A DNA stretch of 52,866 nucleotides from Microcaldota archaeon (lineage in GTDB: Archaea; Micrarchaeota; Micrarchaeia; Micrarchaeales; Micrarchaeaceae). Below the pieces are notes generated by a model. The model saw only the letters and a program-made list of their open reading frames with translations, made no database searches and was not told the origin of the DNA. Below, in pieces: positions 34,035 to 45,308 of the stretch (position 1 is its first letter; each line of letters starts with the position of its first letter). The stretch spans positions 1-52,866 of the forward strand of contig JAJZZO010000002.1 in assembly GCA_021797495.1 (NCBI GenBank). Direction: 5' to 3'. A program made the position numbers and the translations under genes.

Positions 34035-35225
34035 CTATACAAATTTCAACATTTTGATAGCAGCCTCTAAAATAACGTCTTTTCCATCTTTTATATTTCT
34101 TATTGATGGATATACCTCTTTGTCTGGCTTGATTCCGCGCCCTTCAAATCGCGATCCATCAGGAAATGTAACGCCCACAGAACCTACCCCTATAAAGATT
34201 TCGTTTTTATAATTATCTACGTAAGTATTCCCGTTACTGCCTGCAGTTTTTATACCTATTATCTTGGCTCGTTTATTATCTTTAAATGGGAACACAAAAT
34301 CTTCAGCGGCAGACATCGTTGTTTGATCTACTAATATTACCAATTTTCCCGAATATGAATTTTTAATGGGATTTTTATATACCGATTTCTCTATTTTGTA
34401 GTGGTGCATTACTTTCTTACCGTTTATGTTATGCATCATTATAGATACAGCATCTTCAAGGAGTACTTTGGTATAACAAAATCTCCGATATTTTTTATTC
34501 ATTAGGGATTTTATCAATTGAATTGGAGTGTTGCCACCTTCGTTCCCTCGTAGGTCAATTATTAATTTTTTATACTTTTTAAATTTCTTTATGCATTTGG
34601 TCGCATCTTTTACTGCATTTTTGGAACTAAAGGATGGAATGGATACATACGCTATGTCTTCACTAATCTTTTTGGCTACACATACACGTTTATGCATATG
34701 ACTATTTTTATCAGACCGTGTTATTTTTATTACTCTATTGTCGTTGGTTGTTATGCTGAATCGCTGTGGGAATAACCATGGATATTCAAATAACCCGTTT
34801 CTCGCCATTCTATCGCTAGAGGCAGATAAGTAAACCTTCTTTCTTTTATATACTGCTTCAAGTTTTTCTCCGTTTATACATTTTATGATCGTACCTGGCG
34901 TGATTTCTTTGTTGGTACTGGAAAGCACCACCCACACTTTTTTATAATCATGGTATATTGCATGGAAAGGCAGTGAACCGCCATATTTATTCCGAAGTGA
35001 TAAATCGTTATACCATGTATGGGTATTTTTGAACTTGGCCATGAATTCCTTCATGACCATAGCAAACTCATATCTACTATCAGTATCCATTACTTTTTTT
35101 ATGTATTCTTTGTATAACTCGTCGATTTCAATATATGGTATCGATTCCCAATGCACAAAATAATTCTGAACATCGTGCATGGCTTTATAGAGCACCAGCA
35201 GACGTTCTTCAATTTTTATATCCAT
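34035..35225 (-). CDS. S41-family (tail-specific/CtpA-like) serine peptidase
   Basis: This 396-aa protein has no signal peptide. A PDZ-like segment (about 105-125, ITPGTIIKCINGEKL) precedes the S41 core: IAYVSIPSFS, LIIDLRGNEGGNTP (222-235), and the catalytic region LVDQTTMSAAEDFVFPF with Ser305. GIKTAGSNGN follows. Codon use is AT-rich, unlike the flanking genes. It lies inside a 1.5-kb insert between two copies of the metallopeptidase tail, which points to acquisition or rearrangement. It is probably a cytosolic protease; the substrate is unknown. Confidence 0.8.
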   Translation of the reverse strand: MDIKIEERLLVLYKAMHDVQNYFVHWESIPYIEIDELYKEYIKKVMDTDSRYEFAMVMKEFMAKFKNTHTWYNDLSLRNKYGGSLPFHAIYHDYKKVWVVLSSTNKEITPGTIIKCINGEKLEAVYKRKKVYLSASSDRMARNGLFEYPWLFPQRFSITTNDNRVIKITRSDKNSHMHKRVCVAKKISEDIAYVSIPSFSSKNAVKDATKCIKKFKKYKKLIIDLRGNEGGNTPIQLIKSLMNKKYRRFCYTKVLLEDAVSIMMHNINGKKVMHHYKIEKSVYKNPIKNSYSGKLVILVDQTTMSAAEDFVFPFKDNKRAKIIGIKTAGSNGNTYVDNYKNEIFIGVGSVGVTFPDGSRFEGRGIKPDKEVYPSIRNIKDGKDVILEAAIKMLKFV

Positions 35226-38502: not shown

Positions 38503-39360
38503 TTATTGTGCATTCAGAAAATCTGTATTTATATAACTTTTGAAATCGGTTTTTAAAAGAAATGACCATATATCTTCTTGACCAACCACTTTAGTATACT
38601 CCATCATTAAATTGTTTAGTTTTTGCGCGGTTTCCATACTGCAAACGCTAGTTATCTGTTCTAGATAGTTTCCAGCCATGCGGTGAGATTGGAATCCGAA
38701 TACCTCGCTAAGCAAACCATATGGAGCAAAATATCTTAATAGTGCTTCTTCGAATCCGCGATCTGTATTTTTAATGACGTTATACTTAGAAAATAAGACA
38801 TGTAATAATTCGTGTATTATTACCGAAATTGGTTCATTCTTATCTTTTTTAAGCACATATCTCCCCATACTATAGCTTATAACTCCAATATTCCTGTTTA
38901 CTGCTAGCTTCTGCCCGAAAGAGTTATTTTTATTGCCATATTCGTCAAGTATTATCACTAATTTATTGGGAAGCTGCATCCTAAATATTTCCTGTACTCT
39001 CTTTTCCATTTTATCTTTGATTTTCTCAAAAGATTCAGTTATTATAGCTTCTAATTCTATGAAAAATGAGTCGTCTGTATCTTTAATTTGTATATCTAGA
39101 CTGTCTAGCATTGAGATAATATGTGAACCTCCGATTTCTTCTATTTCTGCTTCCGGGTTATTTTCAAAGCATGCGTCCCATATTGATTGGTGATTAGGTA
39201 TTGAAATCGATTCTTCGAATACTTTACTTGAAATGTAAATTTCTTTGCCGAAAAATGTGGGAAAATCTTTGATTACCTGGGGTAACGCACCCTGACCGAA
39301 CATTTTGAATATTATGTTCAGTTTCCTAAACCTATCACTTGTTATAAATCTCAAATCCAA
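38503..39360 (-). CDS. HExxH putative zinc protease in the radical SAM operon
   Basis: This 285-aa protein is not recognised at family level. VIIHELLHVLFSKYN (H183, E184, H187) is an HExxH zinc site, and GFEEALLRYF (E204/E205) could give the third ligand in gluzincin fashion. The N-terminal 170 residues are helical with a mid-domain strand KLVIILDEYG. TTG at 39360 follows the radical SAM stop by a single base, so the genes are coupled. AT-rich. A role in cleaving the modified upstream product is inference. Confidence 0.6.
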   Translation of the reverse strand: MDLRFITSDRFRKLNIIFKMFGQGALPQVIKDFPTFFGKEIYISSKVFEESISIPNHQSIWDACFENNPEAEIEEIGGSHIISMLDSLDIQIKDTDDSFFIELEAIITESFEKIKDKMEKRVQEIFRMQLPNKLVIILDEYGNKNNSFGQKLAVNRNIGVISYSMGRYVLKKDKNEPISVIIHELLHVLFSKYNVIKNTDRGFEEALLRYFAPYGLLSEVFGFQSHRMAGNYLEQITSVCSMETAQKLNNLMMEYTKVVGQEDIWSFLLKTDFKSYINTDFLNAQ

Positions 39361-39361
39361 T

Positions 39362-40360
39362 CTAAAACCTTGATTTTTCTTTTATTTGAAGTGCGTGATT
39401 AAGCTCTTTTCTACGGAAGTTCAATTGGCATTGACCACCTTCCATCCCAAGTCTTAGATATCTATCCAGTGATCTTTGCCATATATCTCCCCATGATTCA
39501 GAATACAGGTTTCCGATAGATACATCCCTTATGGTGACGCATGGAGTTACATCTCCATTTGCAAAAACTCCCGCTCTTAGTAATCCAGCAGTGCATTTTT
39601 TAAAACCGTAGGTCTCCATTAGTGTATCGTTGTGATTTTCTTTATCGCAACCGTTATTTACGATACCACTTATTCTTACGTCATCTCTGCTTAAATCATG
39701 TTTAAGTTTGTTTATTTCTGTGTGCAAGCCAAACATTCTTTTACTATCGCATCTAAGCTCATTATATTTTTTATAACCTAAAGTAGAAGTAGGTTGAATG
39801 GGTTCAAGGTTTATTAATTGAATATTACTATAATTTAAAAGTAGATATTTTACGGTTTCTATTACATCATTACTGTTATGATTCGTTAGTACTATCCCTA
39901 CAGAAAATTGAATTCCGTTGCGGTCTAAGATATCCATACCTTTTATTGATTGTTTTGCCAAGCCTCTAGTTTTATCATTTATGTTTGGATTTATGCTATC
40001 TATCGAAATTTGTAAATTGGCATTATTTTTAAACGCGAAGATGGATTTCATTTTTTTGAGTTCGACAGCGCTTAAATTAGCCAATCTGGTACCGTTAGTA
40101 CTTATACCAATATTGCCGTTAAATACCTTATATGCATAATCCAATATTTCAATTATATCTCTCCTTAAAAACGGTTCGCCACCCAATATCACTATCTCGA
40201 ATGGATTTATTTCTTCGCTTGTTTTGCTAAATAGATATTTTAGCTTTCCTAACTCGGGCATTAAGTTAGTAAATGGTTTGGCATAGCAATATACACAGTC
40301 TAAATTGCAAACGCTCAGGACTTCAAACTCTACCCTAAAAGGCCCTCTTGGGAGAATCAT
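39362..40360 (-). CDS. Radical SAM enzyme with twitch/SPASM-like C-terminus
   Basis: This 332-aa protein has the radical SAM cluster motif CNLDCVYC (C18, C22, C25), GGEPFLRRDI and a TIM-barrel-like middle. The C-terminal part has CX12GX4C (from about residue 255: C, then NGDVTPC), a GNL segment and one more Cys near 311, matching a twitch (shortened SPASM) domain with an auxiliary cluster. Such enzymes modify peptides. ATG 40360 has GGTG 8 nt upstream; the longer TTG start adds two residues. It probably acts on the protein encoded just upstream. Confidence 0.85.
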   Translation of the reverse strand: MILPRGPFRVEFEVLSVCNLDCVYCYAKPFTNLMPELGKLKYLFSKTSEEINPFEIVILGGEPFLRRDIIEILDYAYKVFNGNIGISTNGTRLANLSAVELKKMKSIFAFKNNANLQISIDSINPNINDKTRGLAKQSIKGMDILDRNGIQFSVGIVLTNHNSNDVIETVKYLLLNYSNIQLINLEPIQPTSTLGYKKYNELRCDSKRMFGLHTEINKLKHDLSRDDVRISGIVNNGCDKENHNDTLMETYGFKKCTAGLLRAGVFANGDVTPCVTIRDVSIGNLYSESWGDIWQRSLDRYLRLGMEGGQCQLNFRRKELNHALQIKEKSRF

Positions 40361-40378
40361 TAACAAAGCACCAATAGA

Positions 40379-40828
40379 TTAATATTTAATCCTTAGTTCT
40401 TTAATAACGTCTGTGAAATCTTTATTAATCTCCTCCAGTGATTTATCCTTAATGCTTTCGAGTAGTTCTATCGCATTTTTGTCAGCATAGAATATTGTAC
40501 CGGTTGAATTATTGCGCACAAAACCATAACCCTTTTCTTTTCGAATTTGGATTATGGCATTAAGTTTAAGTGCATCTACACGTTGTTTATTGCTCGGCCA
40601 CGGAACATTGTCCCATGCTATATCATTATCCCATGGTTTCACGTCATCCCAATTATCCCACATAGTTTTTGATTTAGCGTCAACAAACTCTTGATCGGCT
40701 CTGCTAACATATGGGATTAGTTTGAAGTCGCGCTTTTCATTACTGTTTCTCAACAATGCAAAATTTTTGGCTGCGTCTACAATAGGCACTTCGCTTTTCT
40801 CGTCTCTTGCTTTTGAAAAATTCCCCAT
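40379..40828 (-). CDS. Putative modified protein: WDN motifs plus PqqD-like domain
   Basis: This 149-aa protein heads the radical SAM operon. Residues 1-55 are polar. Residues 56-79 hold a tryptophan cluster: W57-D-N, W60-D-D, W66-D-N, W72-D-N and W77-P-S. Residues 88-149 follow the PqqD/RRE pattern (IIQIRKEKGYGFVRNNSTG, YADKNAIELLESIKDKSLEE). Aromatic-X-Asn/Asp triads are the sites some radical SAM/SPASM enzymes turn into cyclophanes, so this may be a fused substrate and recognition domain. That function is inferred; no search was possible. Confidence 0.6.
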   Translation of the reverse strand: MGNFSKARDEKSEVPIVDAAKNFALLRNSNEKRDFKLIPYVSRADQEFVDAKSKTMWDNWDDVKPWDNDIAWDNVPWPSNKQRVDALKLNAIIQIRKEKGYGFVRNNSTGTIFYADKNAIELLESIKDKSLEEINKDFTDVIKELRIKY

Positions 40829-40870
40829 GATAACACCAAAGTATTAACTTATGAAATTTATATATAGATT
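40829..40870 (-). promoter_or_regulatory. Promoter of the WDN/radical SAM operon
   Basis: On the minus strand CTATATATAAAT (about 40857-40868) is a clear TATA box about 33 nt before the ATG at 40828. GGTGTTAT, the local type of Shine-Dalgarno sequence, lies 3-10 nt before that ATG, so the mRNA leader would be very short. Confidence 0.6.
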
Positions 40871-41149
40871 ATTTAAAGGTACGACATTTGACTAATAGTA
40901 TTGCTACTGTTCAAATGAAAATTTTACAACTATTTTACGCAGGAAGCAGTGGTCGTATACTCTTCAACGCACAGAACATCTGCGATAATGGCATCTGATT
41001 TAAGACATGTACAAGGACAAAGAATTTGATTTTTGCGCAAGTTATATATTAACAATTAAGGATTAATTGTGGAATATTTTATAAGCGCCATAATTACAAG
41101 ATATGATAGCTCATATTTAACTGTTCTAGAAAAATATAGTTGATAATTC
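40871..41149. other. Intergenic region between divergent operons
   Basis: About 280 nt between the radical SAM operon and the class I LysRS gene. It is AT-rich with several T-runs. TATA-like AAAATATAG at about 41129-41137 may drive the LysRS gene. I see no ORF, tRNA or repeat. Confidence 0.4.
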
Positions 41150-42718
41150 ATGGACAACGAATCCATTTTAGAGGATAATAAACCGCAAATAAAAGGCATA
41201 GAGCATTGGTCGACAAAGTTGGCTAATGAAGTAATCTCTAAGAAATCACCGCCATTTGTAATAACAGGAGGTATGACTACAAGCGGGCCGGCGCATTTGG
41301 GCACCGTATGCGAATTTTTATACCCGTCCGTCATAAAGAAGAGCATAGAAGCCCTGGGACATGATATAAAATTTTACTTTGTGGGAGACATATTAGACGC
41401 GTTTGATAGCATCCCAGAGGAATTAAACGCTTATTCCGAAACGCTTAAAGCAGAACTAGGTAAGCCTCTTGCTCGTACGTTGGATCCGAAAGGATGCCAT
41501 AATTCGTTTGGCGAACATTATCTTATGCAAGCAGTTGATATTATGCACCTGCTAAACATAGATATAAATGTCATAAGAGCCACCCAACTTTATACAGATG
41601 GATCTTTTGACGTTTACACTAAGAAATATCTGCAGAATGAAGACATTGTTCGTGATATCGTTGCCAGGACCTCCGGAAGGGAAAGTAAGGATTTCGCATC
41701 TTGGAGCCCCATAATGCCAATTTGCCAAAATTGCGGCAGGATAGCCACTACAAGAGTAATACAGCATAACGATACCGAATATGAATACGCTTGCGATAAA
41801 GATGTAGGTTACGTCAAAGGGTGTGGCCATAGCGGGAAAAATGATATACGCGACCACGAATATAAGCTGCAATGGCGATTGCATTGGTCAGCTTGGCAGG
41901 CTTGGTTCCGTACGAGCATAGAAGGTTCTGGAGTAGACCATATGACAAAGGGTGGAAGCAAGGACACAAGCTTCGCCGTTCTAAAGGACTTCTTTAATAT
42001 CGAACCGCCCGTATATTACAAATACGGTTTTGTCTTGTTCCATGGCAAGAAATATTCAAAAAGCAAGGGGATAGGCGTTAGCGCTGCGGACATAGTAAAG
42101 CTTATTCCGCCGGAGCTCTTAATTTACATGTTAACATTGCCGAACATAGAGGCGAATAAAGACATAGATCCTGACGGCGAAAAATTGATTAGAGTATACG
42201 AAGACATAGAGAGAATATCAAAGTTGAATGTTCCCGAAAACAGGGCCGATGCCAAAAAATTAAATGTTTACAAGCTGCTTATAAAAAAACTGCCGTGGAA
42301 AGCACCATTTTTGGATATCCTCATGAATTTTCAGGTATACAAAGACTTTGAAAAAGTCGGAGATATAGTCAACGATAAACTAGGTGCGGAATATTTATCC
42401 AAGTATATAGAAGAATGGTTGCGCATGGGTTATGCACCTGAAAGGTATAACTTTTCAGTGTCTTACGATTCAAAAATAACCGTTAATAAGGAAGCGGTCA
42501 GGTCATTTATAGACGAGCTGGGTTCCGACATGTCTCCTGAGGACATACACGCCCTTGTCTATAAAATCGCAAAGGACAAAGGGGTTGACGCAAAAGAATT
42601 ATTTAAATCATTATATAACGGTATCATAAATAAGGATACTGGCCCGAGATTCGGAAAACTGGCTTACGCCATAGGCATAAGCAATATAAAAAATATACTA
42701 ACTAAAGCAATAGAATAA
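41150..42718 (+). CDS. lysS: Lysyl-tRNA synthetase, class I
   Basis: This 522-aa enzyme ligates lysine to tRNA-Lys with a Rossmann-fold (class I) core. The HIGH-like motif is GPAHLG (about 46-51), the KMSKS-like motif YSKSKG (about 299-304), and a zinc-binding CQNCGR is near 192. The helical anticodon-binding part runs from about 340 to the end, with DTGPRFGKLAYAIG near the C-terminus. Base composition is AT-richer than that of the class II gene 1.1 kb downstream. Two unrelated LysRS classes in one genome is uncommon. Confidence 0.93.
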   Translation: MDNESILEDNKPQIKGIEHWSTKLANEVISKKSPPFVITGGMTTSGPAHLGTVCEFLYPSVIKKSIEALGHDIKFYFVGDILDAFDSIPEELNAYSETLKAELGKPLARTLDPKGCHNSFGEHYLMQAVDIMHLLNIDINVIRATQLYTDGSFDVYTKKYLQNEDIVRDIVARTSGRESKDFASWSPIMPICQNCGRIATTRVIQHNDTEYEYACDKDVGYVKGCGHSGKNDIRDHEYKLQWRLHWSAWQAWFRTSIEGSGVDHMTKGGSKDTSFAVLKDFFNIEPPVYYKYGFVLFHGKKYSKSKGIGVSAADIVKLIPPELLIYMLTLPNIEANKDIDPDGEKLIRVYEDIERISKLNVPENRADAKKLNVYKLLIKKLPWKAPFLDILMNFQVYKDFEKVGDIVNDKLGAEYLSKYIEEWLRMGYAPERYNFSVSYDSKITVNKEAVRSFIDELGSDMSPEDIHALVYKIAKDKGVDAKELFKSLYNGIINKDTGPRFGKLAYAIGISNIKNILTKAIE

Positions 42719-43705: not shown

Positions 43706-43844
43706 GAAAACACCATTGATAATTGTTGCGTAAAAGTAATAGCTTTTTTCCGCTCATTTTGCACTTATTGTAAAAAGTTTGCACATTAGCACATAATAAA
43801 TAATAATTTAACATATGCATTTCTATTACATTTTCGGGATTTTT

Positions 43845-45308
43845 ATGGTAGACAGTTTCAAATTGGATAAAATGAAAAAGCTTTTGGAGAAGGGAATAAA
43901 CCCATATCCTTATTCCTTCAAGCAGAGCGCACACGCCGAAGAGATAAAGGCGAACTATGAAAAAATGGAGGGAACGTCAGTAAGCGTTGCCGGCAGAGCG
44001 GTCAGCATGAGGCGCATGGGGCAGCTGTATTTTATAGACATTCTCGACGAGAGCGGCAAAATACAGATGCTTGCCGCGGCGAACATAACCGAAAAGGCCT
44101 CTTTCGAATTGCTCGATGAGATAGATGCCGGAGATATTTTAGGCATCGAAGGCACCGTAAGCAAAACCAAGCGCGGTGAGATAAGCGTAGAGGCAAAGGG
44201 CATCACGGTGCTCGCAAAATCGCTGAGGCAGCTTCCCGAGAAGTTCCACGGGCTCAACGATACCGAGCTGCGCTACAGGAAGAGGTATCTGGACCTTATA
44301 GCCAATACCGAAGTAAGAAAATTTTTTACAACAAGGGCCAAAGTGCTCAGTTTCCTGCGCAATTTCCTGGATTCCAGGGGCTATGTGGAATTTGAAACGC
44401 CGATACTGCAGCAGACATACGGAGGGGCAAACGCTGAGCCTTTCAAGACTAGGTATAACGCCCTGGGCACCGACGTGTTTCTGAGAATTTCGGACGAACT
44501 GTATTTAAAAAGGCTCATCATAGGCGGCTTCGAGAAGGTTTATGAGGTATCAAAGGACTTCAGGAACGAGGACATAGACTCCACACACAATCCTGAGTTC
44601 ACGCAGATAGAATTCTACGAAGCCTACAAGGACTACAACGACTTTATGGAAATGACTGAAGAAATGCTATCAAAGCTCGTAAAGGAGCTTTTCGGCACCA
44701 CAAAGATAAAATACCAGGGAAAGGAGCTTGACTTCACGCCGCCGTTCAAAAGGGTCTACTGGGTCGATGAGATAAAGAAGAAAACAGGCATAGACGTAGC
44801 TGAGTTGACCGACGAACAGGCAAAGGAGATTTCGAAAAAGGAGAAGCTTGAGATAGGCATAGTCAATGCCTACCACGTTGCAGACGCGCTGTTCGACAAA
44901 TACATAAAGCCTGAGCTTTTCAACCCGGCGTTCGTTCTTGACTTCCCGGCGTACATGTGTCCGCTCACAAAGGACAAGCGCGGCAACCCGAAGCTCAGCG
45001 AAAGGTTCGAGCTTTACCTTGCGGGGAAGGAGGACGCGAATTGTTACTCCGAGCTTACTGACCCGATAGAGCAGAGGAAGAAATTCGAGGAGCAGGATTC
45101 CGAGAGGAAGAAGGGCGACGTCGAAGCGCCGCCGAGCGACGAGGATTTCCTTGAAGCGATAGAATACGGGATGCCTCCCACGGCCGGGCTTGGGATAGCG
45201 ATAGACAGGCTGGCGATGATACTTACGGACAATGTGTCGATAAAGGAGGTAATGCCGTTCCCTGCGGTGAAGCCGAAGAACGAGCCGACAGACCAGGCCG
45301 CAAGTTAG
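43845..45308 (+). CDS. lysS: Lysyl-tRNA synthetase, class II
   Basis: This enzyme of about 487 aa has an N-terminal OB-fold for the anticodon (about 45-135; VSVAGRAVSMRRMGQLYFID), class II motif 1 (RNFLDSRGYVEFETPIL), motif 2 (FRNEDIDSTHNPEFTQIEFY) and motif 3 (GLGIAIDRLAMIL). The mid-sequence is divergent but complete. I start at ATG 43845 (MVDSFKLDK), since the upstream ATG would add ten hydrophobic residues overlapping the promoter. It duplicates the activity of the class I enzyme at 41150. Confidence 0.93.
   Translation: MVDSFKLDKMKKLLEKGINPYPYSFKQSAHAEEIKANYEKMEGTSVSVAGRAVSMRRMGQLYFIDILDESGKIQMLAAANITEKASFELLDEIDAGDILGIEGTVSKTKRGEISVEAKGITVLAKSLRQLPEKFHGLNDTELRYRKRYLDLIANTEVRKFFTTRAKVLSFLRNFLDSRGYVEFETPILQQTYGGANAEPFKTRYNALGTDVFLRISDELYLKRLIIGGFEKVYEVSKDFRNEDIDSTHNPEFTQIEFYEAYKDYNDFMEMTEEMLSKLVKELFGTTKIKYQGKELDFTPPFKRVYWVDEIKKKTGIDVAELTDEQAKEISKKEKLEIGIVNAYHVADALFDKYIKPELFNPAFVLDFPAYMCPLTKDKRGNPKLSERFELYLAGKEDANCYSELTDPIEQRKKFEEQDSERKKGDVEAPPSDEDFLEAIEYGMPPTAGLGIAIDRLAMILTDNVSIKEVMPFPAVKPKNEPTDQAAS

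Follow-up and report, generated by a model that had tools for sequence, protein, structure and literature searches.

The window analysed here, i.e. the whole stretch of 52,866 nucleotides derived from a genome of 0.96 Mb, contains three tightly packed ORFs located on the minus strand (38503-40828), which are referred to as genes A, B and C. A summary of their features is presented in Table 1. The ORFs occupy the positions given in the first-pass annotation, which had described them as AT-rich: their G+C content (33-37%) is lower than that of the window (45%), and their GC3 is 30-33%, compared with 58-65% for most of the housekeeping genes of the window. The same annotation placed the three genes behind a TATA box; a TATA-like stretch (TTTAAATA/TATATATAA) does precede gene A, but this was judged by eye only. 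A sigma-70 promoter scan was set aside as not meaningful, since the host is an archaeon. For gene B, ATG 40360 is the preferred start codon, rather than the TTG (40366) selected by the ORF caller 6 bases 5′ of it, because the MILP sequence is kept among homologues. Gene C encodes a protein of 285 aa, and its TTG start lines up with the ATG at which a homologue begins.

Table 1. Features of the A-B-C locus and their positions in the window.
Feature	Position	Strand	Description
Gene A	40379..40828	minus	149 aa; predicted precursor fused to an RRE, with a leader motif, a core of Trp triads and an RRE-like domain at the C-terminus
Gene B	39362..40360	minus	332 aa when started at the ATG; radical SAM/twitch enzyme without its own RRE
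Gene C	38503..39360	minus	HELLH protein with Glu pair downstream, gluzincin-like; putative peptidase (or hydroxylase)
Gene A leader-like motif, LIPYVSRADQEFVD region	40679..40720	minus	residues 37-50; predicted strand 38-41; motif shared by homologues
Gene A core WDN-WDD-WDN-WDN-WPS	40592..40660	minus	residues 57-79; predicted to be disordered
Gene A RRE-like domain	40382..40591	minus	residues 80-149; predicted beta-beta-beta-alpha-alpha-alpha; AF2 and Foldseek
TATA-like and SD-like region 5′ of gene A	40829..40890	minus	read by eye

The neighbourhood of the operon contains genes for lysyl-tRNA synthetases of both class I (PF01921) and class II (PF00152), located 1 kb apart at 41150-42718 and 43815-45308. 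The GC3 of the class I gene, which flanks the operon, is low (42%), and the 7 other genomes of the genus yielded no copy of this gene. An AT-rich gene (34% G+C) encoding an S41-family peptidase is located approximately 3 kb from the operon (34035-35225). This gene and the neighbouring NUDIX gene were rejected as members of the system, since they are not conserved partners at the other loci.

A search of 301 Micrarchaeota genomes with gene B identified 10 homologues of full length, distributed over 8 genomes; a remoter eleventh (G001, contig 3) was found by reading of the neighbourhoods and a second search. An independent search with a profile of A returned these 8 genomes and 11 locations and no others. 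At these locations, gene A lies directly upstream of gene B, at a distance of 2-20 bases (nine pairs measured). Genes A and B are confined to these 8 genomes as 11 adjacent pairs, and neither A without B nor B without A was found among the 301 genomes; the regular occurrence of the radical SAM gene on its own, named in the first-pass annotation as an argument against its proposal, was therefore not observed. The co-occurrence of the gene trio, suggested there as a check, held for A and B (11/11), but not for the HExxH gene C, which is present in only 5 of the 11 systems. The arrangement expected of a RiPP pathway, a gene-encoded putative precursor adjoining and co-inherited with a candidate modifying enzyme, was seen in all 11 pairs. 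The dN/dS values calculated between G241C7 and G243 (0.21 for A and 0.06 for B) indicate that both genes are under constraint.

Neither gene occurs in the seven remaining genomes of the genus, and a search over 395 relatives at E 1e-40 revealed no further homologues. Searches of virus contigs, phages and plasmids returned nothing, or remote radical SAM enzymes only. The patchy spread of the A-B system, over two families and 7 of 126 genera, together with its low G+C content, suggests that it was acquired by horizontal transfer. Further radical SAM loci belonging to this enzyme family (in G066, G028, G029, G031, G060 and G006) were inspected and proved to be unrelated. We also observed, in contig 11 of G241 (L089:1262-2487), a 60-aa ORF ending in SIESWDGDDGGRG, located directly before a gene for a full radical SAM/SPASM protein, which looks like a separate, conventional cyclophane-type RiPP pair with a C-terminal core.

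The product of gene B matched the Pfam models Radical_SAM (8e-16) and SPASM (5e-7). It contains both of the motifs listed in the first-pass annotation, CX3CX2C (C20-X3-C24-X2-C27) and CX12GX4C (C258-X12-G271-X4-C276). Residues C20, C24, C27, C258, C276 and C313 are invariant in the 11 homologues, of which 10 also have a linker Cys at about the position of C240. This corresponds to the CX3CX2C and CX9-15GX4C-gap-C pattern of radical SAM/twitch enzymes and, as judged from these motifs, B belongs to the radical SAM proteins whose twitch domain binds a single cluster. Its closest relative in the PDB is the RiPP maturase SkfB (3.5e-24); B begins at the core domain and lacks the N-terminal RRE of SkfB, CteB and SuiB. 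Among the NCBIfam matches listed (25 of 65), the scores of B did not come near the cut-off of any named subfamily (best match: ScmE, 74.8 of 400), these matches place it in no known 3-CyFE subfamily of triceptide maturases, and the best of the listed matches are mixed, i.e. ScmE, WgkB (Lys-Trp), mycofactocin MftC and GeoRSP. The reaction of B must therefore be argued from its substrate.

The homologues of A are composed of a short N-terminal motif, a Trp-rich variable middle part, which aligns poorly, and a C-terminal domain that is conserved and in which I-x-R and G-F recur. The consensus of the N-terminal motif is IPYxRSAxQEF, with the variants LIPYVSRADQEF, LIPFSKSASQEF, RLYARSADQEF, VPYSHTADSEF, IPFSRGSDQEF and IPYARSASQEY. 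In the protein encoded within the window, the four triads recorded earlier (W57-D-N, W60-D-D, W66-D-N and W72-D-N) are all present, along with a fifth Trp (W77-P-S) that had not been listed. Among 10 non-redundant A sequences, the position +2 of 35 of the 41 Trp residues is occupied by Asn, Asp or Gln, compared with 25% expected by shuffling, and none of 5000 shuffles reached the observed count; offset +1 is mildly enriched, and offsets +3 and +4 are at chance. Asn, Asp or Gln is also found at +2 of 8 of the 10 core Tyr residues. These aromatic-X-X3 triads constitute what is, in sequence terms, the signature of triceptide cyclophanes. The spacing between successive Trp residues varies (mostly 3-7), and so does the residue at +2: the cores of G241 and G243 use Gln throughout (WEQ-WTQ-WDQ-WVQ-WDQ), and that of G211 uses Asp and Asn (WDD-WHD-WDN-WDN-WGN-WDN). 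All five Trp residues and their +2 residues are unchanged between G241C7 and G243, in which the N-terminal and RRE parts diverge more. No double-Gly or signal-type site was obvious in A.

The first-pass annotation had also regarded homologues that lack the Trp triads while keeping the enzyme as evidence against its proposal. Only one of the 11 homologues is of this kind (P0015, the second G241 copy of A); it contains no Trp, but retains a Tyr-Ser-Asn (YSN) triad. The A-B-C set to which it belongs, in which this Tyr triad is the only one, is located in contig 20 of G241 (L073:9188-11402), approximately 3 kb from the first set, and may represent a diverged substrate specificity. In G207, the homologue of A (L075:6082-6448) contains WDN-WDN as well as YKD, YVN and YKD; an in-frame TGA occurs just 5′ of the leader motif, at the contig end, and only the remaining part of this truncated copy, with its leader motif cut short, was used. 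The remote system of G001 (contig 3; L036:5080-7236) has a WDNGGWSGKGWSR core and a PqqD-like C-terminus, and is located beside transposase-like genes.

The C-terminal domain of A (residues 80-149) was folded alone, because a search of Foldseek with the full-length model was diluted by disorder. In the AF2 model (10 rows; pLDDT 84.4) the domain adopts the beta-beta-beta-alpha-alpha-alpha order of the winged-helix fold of RREs. A Foldseek search against 350,542 PDB chains returned, as the four best matches, RREs from leader-peptide complexes (best: CteB 5why and TbiB1 5v1v/5v1u; probability 0.93 to 0.66), with PbtF, SuiB and CteB 5wgg also within the top 50. The E-values were 0.09 and above, with none reaching E 0.001; as matches to a predicted model, they are specific for RREs, though without significance by themselves. 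Alignment with the mycofactocin RRE MftB2 (hhalign) placed the strands in register, but was weak (P 0.014, probability 3%). Neither PqqD (PF05402) nor any other RRE sequence model of Pfam and NCBIfam matched A, and a profile search of its RRE-like domain against PDB sequences returned no RRE; PF05402 is known to overlook many RREs (PMC7470986). The PqqD/RRE-like C-terminus, on which the first-pass annotation had made its proposal depend, is thus predicted by structure modelling, but is not recognized by Pfam or NCBIfam.

In the model of full-length A, the pLDDT is below 50 for residues 44-84, i.e. the Trp segment is predicted to be disordered. Residues 38-41, within the shared N-terminal motif, were assigned by DSSP as a strand of low confidence, and all other strands are located in the RRE. 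A strand in DSSP implies a pairing partner and, as judged from this secondary structure, AlphaFold seems to have extended the RRE sheet by the leader. RREs bind the leader as a fourth strand beside beta-3. The leader of CteB joins the sheet of its RRE (PMC6231123).

The third position of the operon is less uniform. The HELLH motif reported for gene C is present (residues 183-187), and proteins with HExxH occupy this position in 5 of the 11 systems; four others encode TraB/TIKI-like proteins, the remote system of G001 has a degenerate form (HGYFH), and nothing recognizable was seen there in G009. A candidate peptidase gene, of one of two unrelated kinds, is thus present in 9 of the 11 systems. 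All five HExxH proteins contain a Glu pair 17-21 residues after the motif, which agrees with the gluzincin-type pattern (HExxH and a Glu about 18 residues on). The TraB/TIKI-like proteins share a conserved His, Glu, E-x-x-R-N and G-x-G-H, and Pfam TraB matches one of them, at no better than E 0.05. The designation of gene C as a protease, made in the first-pass annotation, is therefore weakened: the motif is there, but it recurs in a minority of the systems, and no Pfam or NCBIfam model matches the protein.

Taken together, we consider it probable (roughly two chances in three) that A and B constitute a minimal cyclophane RiPP pathway, with an RRE built into the precursor and a core that is freed, probably by a metallopeptidase. 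The N-terminal motif of A (LIPYVSRADQEF) would dock as an added beta-strand on the C-terminal RRE of the same chain, which would loop out the disordered Trp-rich segment and present it to B, an enzyme with no RRE. Using a 5′-deoxyadenosyl radical and the auxiliary cluster bound by its twitch, B would then take a beta-carbon hydrogen from the Asn, Asp or Gln at i+2 and bond this carbon to the ring of Trp i, creating one three-residue cyclophane per W-x-[NDQ] triad with a change of -2 Da each; the Tyr triads (Y-x-[NDQ]) would be closed likewise. The modified segment would probably be cut from the leader and the RRE by a metallopeptidase, i.e. the product of gene C here and the TraB/TIKI-like protein elsewhere. 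We infer the cross-linking chemistry from the motif and by analogy with the triceptides, and we also infer the release of the product and the biological role of the system. The self-recognizing substrate with an internal core, put forward in the first-pass annotation, withstands the tests of RRE fold, Trp loss and occurrence of the enzyme alone. Several observations count against this pathway: (i) the Foldseek E-values exceed 0.001 and no sequence model names an RRE, (ii) one homologue (P0015) is free of Trp, (iii) all triads of G241 and G243 have Gln at X3, which is not among the acceptors described in PMC11002830, (iv) an internal core needs two cuts and there is no constant peptidase, (v) no transporter was seen beside the genes, and (vi) the family of B, below the listed NCBIfam cut-offs, gives no reaction.

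The main competing reading of gene C accepts this pathway and makes the protein an alpha-KG-dependent HExxH hydroxylase, or an oxidative cleaver, acting on cyclophane residues. HExxH proteins encoded near cyclophane enzymes, once annotated as peptidases, can be hydroxylases of this type, which beta-hydroxylate Asp or His once the cyclophane has formed, or cleave the backbone by oxidation (PMC12636437). We regard this reading as the lesser possibility, given that TIGR04267 (mod_HExxH) matched none of the six gene-C-position proteins scanned and nothing in a direct search of the genome carrying the window, that the Glu pair is gluzincin-like in all five proteins, and that the replacement of C by a TraB/TIKI-like gene in four systems would suit a peptidase role. 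It is rather unlikely that A is a substrate on which B performs another radical change, such as the joining of two Trp by an ether or of Trp to Lys (compare darobactin and streptide), epimerisation, dehydrogenation or an aminomalonate-type reaction. The mixed NCBIfam matches of B, among those listed, would allow for this, and sequence networks do not readily predict the reactions of radical SAM/SPASM enzymes (PMC6231123); however, the residue at i+2 is an amide or acid, neither a second aromatic nor Lys, and the variable Trp spacing is ill-suited to a fixed Trp-Trp link.

Two further alternatives concern the role of A itself. The modified Trp segment might stay in place as a lasting cofactor or binding site, as in quinone-cofactor proteins, so that A would not be a RiPP precursor. 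In favour of this role, A is a protein of 149 aa that contains a folded domain, it shows no clear double-Gly or signal-type site, and no protease accompanies it constantly; but the folded domain resembles a peptide-recognition element and not an enzyme or binding domain, and the core is disordered and variable among homologues, which makes this role improbable. Still less credible is that A is a mere RRE or chaperone with a Trp-rich linker, and that B modifies an unseen small precursor encoded elsewhere. A discrete RRE followed by a radical SAM enzyme is indeed the usual order in mycofactocin and PQQ operons (mftA-mftB-mftC); however, no other conserved small ORF (of 60 aa or more) was found beside the compared loci, no part of A is more patterned than its triads, and a leader-like motif is already present ahead of the core.

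If the proposed pathway is correct, a precursor with its own RRE would change the search for precursors, which would have to include long proteins with internal cores, and would explain why tools mining short peptides miss such systems. Cyclophane chemistry would also enter the Micrarchaeota, whose tiny genomes have little accessory biosynthesis, and a single-chain, self-guiding substrate could be handy for placing cyclophanes on chosen sequences. The odds are slightly in favour of the broader claim of an archaeal class of cyclophane RiPPs, in which a single chain would combine leader, core and RRE (cis RRE) and fold back on itself to offer several W/Y-x-[NDQ] triads, including those with Gln, to a stand-alone twitch enzyme, with unrelated metallopeptidases releasing the product in different genomes. 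RREs have been described as discrete proteins or as fusions to enzymes, biosynthetic or partner proteins (PMC7470986, PMC12710340). In the available portions of the openly licensed literature on precursor-RRE fusions and on RiPPs of DPANN/Micrarchaeota, this architecture was not found, and the accessible part of a survey of mine-drainage DPANN genomes reports 9 RiPP-related clusters without describing this layout (PMC12153355).

Among the known systems, the triceptides (XncB, OscB, MscB and YxdB) also combine a SPASM-type radical SAM enzyme with an adjacent precursor of repeated aromatic-X-Asn/Asp triads; OscB bonds Trp C7 to the C-beta of Asn or Asp at i+2, and YxdB closes Tyr-Asp (PMC11002830). 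The system described here differs from them in (i) its single-cluster twitch in place of a full SPASM domain, (ii) the internal rather than C-terminal core, (iii) the RRE in the precursor, (iv) the archaeal host, (v) the Gln acceptors of some homologues and (vi) the enzyme, which matches no named subfamily among the matches listed. The mycofactocin system, MftA-MftB-MftC(-MftE), likewise brings together a precursor, an RRE, a radical SAM maturase and a peptidase, in archaea as well, and B aligns with MftC over nearly its full length (26-28% identity). However, MftA and MftB are separate proteins, Trp triads are absent, the maturase MftC belongs to the SPASM enzymes, and the modified residues are the C-terminal Val-Tyr. 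SkfB, the best solved relative of B, also has a twitch domain, and the RRE of CteB is the best match to the predicted fold of the C-terminus of A; in SkfB, CteB and SuiB the RRE is fused to the N-terminus of the enzyme, whereas here it is located on the substrate and the enzyme lacks it. In the borosins (OphMA), a core is naturally fused to a component of the machinery that matures it, but there the partner is a catalytic methyltransferase and the core is C-terminal, unlike the RRE and internal core of A. The system is best filed, provisionally, as a new variant of the radical SAM cyclophane RiPPs.
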